DNA from: a virus
Length of the DNA: 45,125 bases
Direction: 5' to 3' (one strand)
IMG/VR virus record: IMGVR_UViG_3300034198_006985
Location: 1-45,125 of that record
The translations under genes and the position numbers were made by a program. Shown here one piece after another: positions 24,740 through 25,552 of the stretch (position 1 is its first letter; each line of letters starts with the position of its first letter). Under the pieces are notes generated by a model, which worked only from the letters and a program-made list of their open reading frames with translations, did not search any database and had not been told where the DNA came from.

Positions 24740-25552
24740 ATGAATGTCCTTGATCTTTTTTCTGGCATTGGTGGGTTTAGTTTGGGGCTTGAAAGGGCGG
24801 GGATGAAAACCGTTGCTTTTTGTGAGATTGATAAAAAGGCTCGTCAAGTTTTGAAAAAGCATTGGCCTGATGTGCCAATTTTTGATGACGTTAAAACTCT
24901 GACCAAGGAAAAGTTGGATGAGCAAACCATTACAGTTGATGTTATTTGCGGAGGATTCCCTTGCCAAGACATATCCCTCGCAGGGCAAGGAGCAGGACTT
25001 GCAGGTGAACGAAGCGGACTCTGGTTCCAATTCCATCGCCTCATTGAAGAAATTAGACCGTCGTGGGTCATCATTGAAAACGTCTCAGCCCTTCGGTCTA
25101 GAGGATTGGATCAAGTTCTCCGGTCGCTCTCTCAGATCGGGTATGATGCGGAGTGGCACTGTATTACCGCTTCCGCCGTTGGTGCGCCTCACCAAAGGGA
25201 CCGCATCTGGATTGTGGCCTACTCCAACCGCGACGGAGAATGGGCCGGGGATGGATCGGAACAACCCAAGGGGAATACAGCAGGGCAACGCATTAGCGAC
25301 AGCAGTAGCTTGGGAATCAAAGGGATGGTGGCCAACGCCCTGCGCCAGAGATTGGAAGGACAATGGAAAATCTCCGGCGGAATTAGCGAGGAACAGCAAA
25401 ACATTAGCGACTCATGCTGGTGGGCAATTGAACCCGCAATGGGTAGAGTGGCTTATGGGATTCCCGGTAGGGTGGACAGACTTAAACAATTAGGAAATGC
25501 TGTTGTGCCTCAAATACCGGAATTGATTGGCAAGGCTATAATGGCATGTTAG
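24740..25552 (+). CDS. C5 cytosine-specific DNA methyltransferase
   Basis: The 270-residue protein carries the ordered C5-MTase motifs: I DLFSGIGGF (residues 4-12), IV GGFPCQDIS with catalytic Cys near 75, VI ENV near 113, VIII QRDR near 152, and X LGNAVVPQ near 252. It methylates cytosine in a short DNA site, probably protecting phage DNA from host restriction. The segment between VIII and X (about 165-235) is shorter and more degenerate than a usual target-recognition domain. That segment also encodes another protein in the +1 frame. No partner restriction enzyme is seen. Confidence 0.88.
   Translation: MNVLDLFSGIGGFSLGLERAGMKTVAFCEIDKKARQVLKKHWPDVPIFDDVKTLTKEKLDEQTITVDVICGGFPCQDISLAGQGAGLAGERSGLWFQFHRLIEEIRPSWVIIENVSALRSRGLDQVLRSLSQIGYDAEWHCITASAVGAPHQRDRIWIVAYSNRDGEWAGDGSEQPKGNTAGQRISDSSSLGIKGMVANALRQRLEGQWKISGGISEEQQNISDSCWWAIEPAMGRVAYGIPGRVDRLKQLGNAVVPQIPELIGKAIMAC
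24918..25493 (+). CDS. Gene nested out of frame inside the cytosine methyltransferase
   Basis: A 191-residue frame lies wholly inside the methyltransferase gene in another phase. It contains LFAEDSLAKTYPS (residues about 9-21), a DRRGSSLKTSQ segment, SGMMRSGTVLPLPPLVRLT, two W-P-T-P motifs (LWPTPTATE and WWPTPCARDW) and LNPQWVEWLMGFPVGWTDL near the C-terminus. These motifs recur in a phage/prophage protein type I recall beside C5 methyltransferases, so the frame is not a chance shadow. The function is not known to me; a methylation-linked role follows only from context. ATG lies after GTTGGATG with a weak ribosome site. Confidence 0.68.
   Translation: MSKPLQLMLFAEDSLAKTYPSQGKEQDLQVNEADSGSNSIASLKKLDRRGSSLKTSQPFGLEDWIKFSGRSLRSGMMRSGTVLPLPPLVRLTKGTASGLWPTPTATENGPGMDRNNPRGIQQGNALATAVAWESKGWWPTPCARDWKDNGKSPAELARNSKTLATHAGGQLNPQWVEWLMGFPVGWTDLNN

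Follow-up and report, generated by a model that had tools for sequence, protein, structure and literature searches.

Background

Lee et al. (1995) are said to have found the small polypeptide of the C5-methyltransferase M.EcoHK31I in an alternative frame inside the gene for the large one, and M.EaeI is reportedly similar. M.EcoHK31I consists of two polypeptides, of which the large one contains motifs I-VIII and X and the smaller one alone contains motif IX; its target-recognition region (TRD) has been placed in the large subunit, by prediction and not as the result of an assay (PMC3404938). M.AquI (CYCGRG) is another naturally split C5-methyltransferase, with motifs I-VIII in its large part (PMC3404938) and half of the TRD together with motifs IX and X in its small part. 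C5-methyltransferases split between motif VIII and the TRD, whether artificially or naturally, assemble and complement well (PMC5944983). M.HhaI is a single chain, and so, as described, is M.BatI, an orphan prophage methyltransferase (GCDGC) that is 20-30% smaller than usual and has a very short TRD and a motif I of the form CxGxxG; the toxicity of M.BatI is independent of its catalytic cysteine (PMC8936443).

Here we compare these systems with a locus in a viral genome, IMG/VR virus record IMGVR_UViG_3300034198_006985, of which positions 1 to 45,125 were analysed; we refer to this whole stretch of 45,125 nucleotides as the window. We consider it highly probable that the C5-methyltransferase of this locus consists of two polypeptides, like M.EcoHK31I, and is written in overlapping frames, with the small subunit (beta) started inside the gene for the large one (alpha).

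Results and discussion

Two overlapping reading frames

A preliminary description, made from the letters of the window, had noted a 191-codon frame lying wholly within a C5-methyltransferase gene in another phase, and we verified both open reading frames. Alpha occupies positions 24740-25552 and encodes 270 residues; beta occupies positions 24918-25493, lies in the +1 frame relative to alpha and encodes 191 residues. Both are on the plus strand, as are all the features given below. Alpha matches PF00145 over residues 1-174 only (E=2e-51) and PHROG_363 over its full length (1.6e-89). It contains the motifs of a PF00145 DNA (cytosine-5) methyltransferase: motif I (DLFSGIGG, SAM binding; 24752-24775), motif IV (GFPCQ, which includes the PCQ with the catalytic Cys75; 24953-24967), motif VI (ENV; 25076-25084), motif VIII (QRDRIWIVA, a QRxR; 25193-25219) and motif X (LGNAVVPQ, with its GN; 25490-25513). 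Motif I falls on invariant columns of alignment A2, in which G72, P74 and C75 of motif IV are also invariant; E113 and N114 of motif VI and G252 and N253 of motif X are invariant as well. Comparing the alpha profile with M.HhaI, we observed a match to residues 12-179, which hold motifs I-VIII, and a weak one to residues 299-318, which hold motif X, while residues 180-298, the small domain, are skipped. Alpha therefore aligns to the large domain of M.HhaI, and the TRD and motif IX that a single-chain enzyme of this type carries between motifs VIII and X are absent from it.

Beta matches PHROG_1008 (E=1.2e-27), a family labelled 'DNA methyltransferase', a name that does not reveal the second frame of a split enzyme; no Pfam family was detectable for it in a Pfam search and no PDB relative in a PDB search with the beta profile. 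It contains FAEDSLAKT, two WPTP motifs and LNPQWVEWLMGFPVGWTDL, all of which the preliminary description had read correctly, as it had motifs I, IV, VI, VIII and X of alpha. The putative TRD (25215-25427) starts at the first W-P-T-P (25215-25226), extends through the second (25329-25340), and varies in both length and sequence among relatives. It is followed by LNPQWVEWLMGFPVGWTDL (25428-25484), nearly invariant in alignment A1. The most conserved stretch of beta, the near-invariant LNPQWVEWLMGFP, lies at its end.

Selection along the overlap

Substitution rates were determined by alpha codon position in 33 disjoint, and hence independent, pairs of relatives. In a +1 overlap, position 1 of the alpha codon is the wobble position of beta, and the alpha wobble position is position 2 of beta. 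Rates at alpha positions 1, 2 and 3 were.097,.052 and.339 upstream of the overlap,.103,.062 and.226 over motifs IV-VIII,.240,.110 and.130 over TRD-IX, and.106,.065 and.334 downstream of the overlap. In a sliding window the fastest position changes from alpha wobble to beta wobble at motif VIII, and then back. The beta-wobble pattern in TRD-IX was found in 31 of 32 informative pairs (sign test, p=1.5e-8), and 167 overlapping pairs, analysed earlier, had shown the same pattern. Constraint on the 5' part of the overlap comes chiefly from alpha, with slowed third positions and a dip around the beta start; over motifs IV-VIII the N-terminal part of beta varies in length and its constraint is less clear.

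Given that the fastest position in TRD-IX is the wobble position of beta, this segment is selected as beta protein, which shows that coding selection acts on the nested frame. The comparison of site variation in each frame, which the preliminary description had itself proposed, thus bears out its suggestion that one stretch of DNA encodes two proteins. It also accounts for what had been described as a weak target-recognition segment in the methyltransferase: the weak appearance of alpha between motifs VIII and X reflects selection of that DNA in the other frame.

A candidate small subunit carrying motif IX

Support for the identity of beta comes from L165. It is one of four loci (L146, L165, L166 and L214; L165 and L166 are Candidatus Megaera plasmids) in which motif IX lies in the alpha frame next to motif X while the WPTP-like region is still in +1, so that beta there would be the TRD alone. 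In L165, where the conserved terminal motif of beta lies just ahead of motif X in one frame, the segment rlkderlnpdwvewlmgypiswtdggsrmqrlqslgnavvplipefl aligns without gaps to residues 268-314 of M.HhaI, the IX-X region (phmmer; a weak second domain). The spacing between the two motifs is 16 residues alike in M.HhaI, the Megaera enzyme and three single-chain controls, and the assignment of the L165 segment to M.HhaI rests on this equal spacing together with motif identity. From the ungapped alignment and the spacing, we conclude that beta supplies motif IX. In the overlapping pairs the distance from MGFP of beta to GN of alpha is exactly 26 nt in 104 of the 108 viral relatives in our collected set and in 86 of 97 motif pairs from bacterial and annotated loci; in the window these are positions 25467-25492, the tail of beta after MGFP and at the same time the segment of alpha ahead of GN. 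Each half of the IX-X linker is thus superimposed on the other.

Since the nested motif is the motif IX that alpha lacks, the nested protein and alpha are halves of one enzyme, the nested one being the small domain that was missing. The conserved motif singled out in the preliminary description, LNPxWVEWLMGFP, is motif IX of a C5-methyltransferase; that the nested product acts with the methyltransferase, which had been offered as a possibility, is very probably right. The variable region of beta lies between motifs VIII and IX and is therefore the target-recognition region by position. We stress that the label TRD rests on position, variability and selection, and not on a matched domain. Very probably, beta is the half that chooses the target sequence. 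An AlphaFold model of beta alone is of low confidence (pLDDT 57.8, pTM 0.21), which would fit a chain that needs a partner and is not positive evidence for one.

Positions 25230-25427 of the window resemble L184 (Paenibacillus macquariensis): the two alphas differ greatly, and the nested frames within them share a nearly identical TRD stretch, NGPGMDxNNPRGIQQGNALATA...WPTP, which suggests that target-recognition modules may be exchanged through the nested frame.

In the mechanism that we propose, alpha would be the large catalytic domain, with SAM binding, the catalytic cysteine and motifs I-VIII and X, and beta would be the small domain, which reads DNA through its target-recognition region and motif IX. 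Either one alone would be an incomplete enzyme; as a heterodimeric C5-methyltransferase the two would rebuild the colinear order I-VIII, TRD, IX, X of M.HhaI, with two overlapping genes here in place of one chain and the last motif of beta standing for its motif IX. The resemblance to M.EcoHK31I is close in that alpha carries motifs I-VIII and X while motif IX is in the smaller polypeptide, and in that, in the window and its relatives as reportedly in M.EcoHK31I, the small polypeptide is in another frame inside the large gene. However, the TRD of M.EcoHK31I (YGGCCR) is predicted to be in the large subunit, whereas here selection from motif VIII to motif IX follows the frame of the small one; moreover, ours is a phage locus in which no restriction partner was recognised, and the likeness is one of motif layout. 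The locus shares with M.AquI a large part with motifs I-VIII, but motif X, which M.AquI has in its small subunit with motif IX, is in alpha here, and the small gene is nested out of frame.

The adjoining genes encode an HTH protein, a replication initiator and a helicase, and a primase, terminase and portal lie farther on; among the neighbouring genes searched in the window no restriction endonuclease partner was recognised, which makes an orphan protective methyltransferase likely. The gene content thus points to an orphan phage methyltransferase that most likely protects against host restriction; it would do so by shielding the phage DNA.

An improbable alternative, though the one that survives best, is that beta is translated and has a separate job (for example, inhibition of a host restriction enzyme, toxicity or regulation), with alpha alone a complete, unusually short methyltransferase. 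The literature describes short orphan C5-methyltransferases, their TRD very short, that are active as single proteins, M.BatI being an example (PMC8936443). Against this, alpha is without motif IX and its segment from VIII to X evolves as the shadow of beta, while beta ends in motif IX at a fixed IX-X offset. The M.BatI clone, moreover, held the whole gene, so a nested frame could have been expressed there too. A CxGxxG motif I is also present in the alpha of phage C72C1 (L169), an alpha/beta pair. With its short length, very short TRD, CxGxxG motif I and toxicity independent of catalysis, M.BatI resembles an alpha and may have a beta nested in it that has escaped notice.

Probable internal initiation of the nested frame

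A Shine-Dalgarno-like AAGGA (24905-24909) lies 8 nt upstream of the ATG at 24918. Among 85 non-redundant loci, 26 have a beta-frame start codon just ahead of motif IV whose Shine-Dalgarno match is 5 nt or longer, against 9.2 expected from synonymous shuffles (shuffle maximum 17), and none has such a start in either of the other two frames; many of the 85 have no strong Shine-Dalgarno match. This enrichment makes it likely that beta begins by internal initiation inside alpha: in the window, a ribosome would start at ATG 24918, behind the Shine-Dalgarno of beta itself, and would read the mRNA of alpha in +1.

Rather less probable still is that ribosomes, having passed motif VIII in the alpha frame, slip into that of beta and so produce a fused chain of motifs I-VIII, TRD and IX with no internal start. 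The selected frame does switch exactly at motif VIII, the place at which a +1 shift would connect these parts. However, the product of a single shift would be without motif X, a motif that the alpha frame conserves; beta is already open, and the third positions of alpha are slowed, ahead of the point where the shift would occur; beta-frame start codons backed by a Shine-Dalgarno are more frequent than expected upstream of motif IV; and M.EcoHK31I has been reported as two polypeptides (PMC3404938).

Conservation of the nested frame

Shuffling the synonymous codons of alpha and comparing the length of the +1 frame, we obtained an equally long frame in 0.55% of shuffles for the window (p=0.0055). 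Among relatives, p was at most 0.001 in 66 of 113 loci and at most 0.05 in 111 of 113, values that are not independent because these loci are related. Scanning IMG/VR with beta returned 337 relatives, and all 80 of the loci kept hold beta in the +1 frame of an alpha relative, the overlap in other genomes for which the preliminary description had proposed to look. So that the presence of beta would not decide which loci were chosen, a second scan was queried with alpha alone. Wherever alpha was full-length in the loci that it gave, the +1 frame was long (about 120-300 codons) and matched beta, and the +2 frame was short (usually 20-90 codons, maximum 128). In single-chain controls from Pseudomonas, motif IX is in frame 0 and the +1 frames are broken, reaching at most 44 and 62 codons. 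Thus a non-coding by-product of composition and of the conserved codons of alpha can be set aside as extremely improbable, since, although the shuffle p for the window taken singly is modest and the beta profile gives weak shadow matches, with stops, in unrelated C5-methyltransferases, the substitution phase tracks beta in TRD-IX, which already contradicts it, and the frame is kept in full-length viral relatives and not in single-chain controls.

Looking for stand-alone beta genes, we found no intact one among the relatives; apparent cases, for example that of Vibrio phage 1.236.O, were rejected because their other frame holds an alpha that had not been annotated. All the intact relatives found overlap a methyltransferase frame; the nested frame is not an independent gene known from elsewhere.

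Distribution, variants and annotation

A scan of GTDB with the single pattern WVEWLMG gave 350 relatives, of which 80 loci were kept. Motif IV is in frame 0 and motif IX in +1 in 74 of these 80 bacterial and archaeal loci, and motif X is back in frame 0 wherever it was recognised. By their record titles, the relatives belong to Pseudomonadota, Bacillota, Actinomycetota, Bacteroidota, Verrucomicrobiota, Acidobacteriota and other groups, and many are metagenome bins. In Pseudomonas, the genus of L190, the beta profile matches 21 of 199 sampled genomes, about 15 of them with an open frame. Eight further phage records, from phages of Escherichia, Salmonella, Edwardsiella, Pseudomonas, Stenotrophomonas, Xanthomonas, Lactobacillus and Microcystis, were inspected and all eight have the same two frames; none has both annotated. 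In the phage records L275, L276, L277 and L281 the nested frame alone is annotated, as a methyltransferase or a hypothetical protein, and the catalytic alpha is missed. Both are annotated in Paenibacillus phage Shelly, where SHELLY_56 ('g55 internal gene') overlaps the methyltransferase SHELLY_55 in +1. PHROG_1008 matches all 74 beta proteins of set A3. Hundreds of phage and bacterial genomes share the arrangement, usually with only one of the two proteins annotated.

Other arrangements were also seen. Three Pseudomonas loci (L269-L271) form another alpha/beta class, with the motif IX SGSERLKMMGFASDW and a 41-nt IX-X register instead of the 26-nt one, possibly of independent origin. L180 and L184, considered as single-chain forms, were rejected as such, one indel that shifts both frames being the better explanation. 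In Mycobacterium phage Ochi17 (L162, 2501-3260) alpha corresponds to two annotated genes in different frames, with an apparent frameshift, and the same two-piece alpha match is found in the records of Llama, Seabastian and OfUltron. The nested frame in Paenibacillus polymyxa plasmid pAP1 (L167, 2379-3869) has two tandem motif IX regions, GQLNPTWVECLMGFP and GQLNPAWVECLMGFP.

Conclusions

Judging provisionally from the open-access literature, this kind of split is known, while its breadth, the annotation of one half only and the selection of the TRD in beta seem to have gone unappreciated. On balance, we lean towards a broader reading: that a large C5-methyltransferase lineage, spread over phages, prophages and many bacterial phyla, has its specificity domain encoded by a nested +1 frame in a fixed 26-nt IX-X register; that many proteins named 'DNA cytosine methyltransferase' would be half-enzymes and others the nested half, with short 'single chains' such as M.BatI being alpha/beta pairs; that few conserved same-strand gene-in-gene overlaps in prokaryotes would be as widespread; and that specificity would be exchanged through the nested frame. 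Cloning or annotation by the long frame alone, or codon optimisation, would yield half an enzyme, wrongly judged inactive, and PHROG and GenBank names mix the two halves. The location of the TRD in this enzyme class becomes testable. The family also offers a clear natural test of overlapping-gene evolution, in which the most strongly selected frame switches at motif VIII and returns at motif X, in an arrangement that recurs across bacterial phyla.
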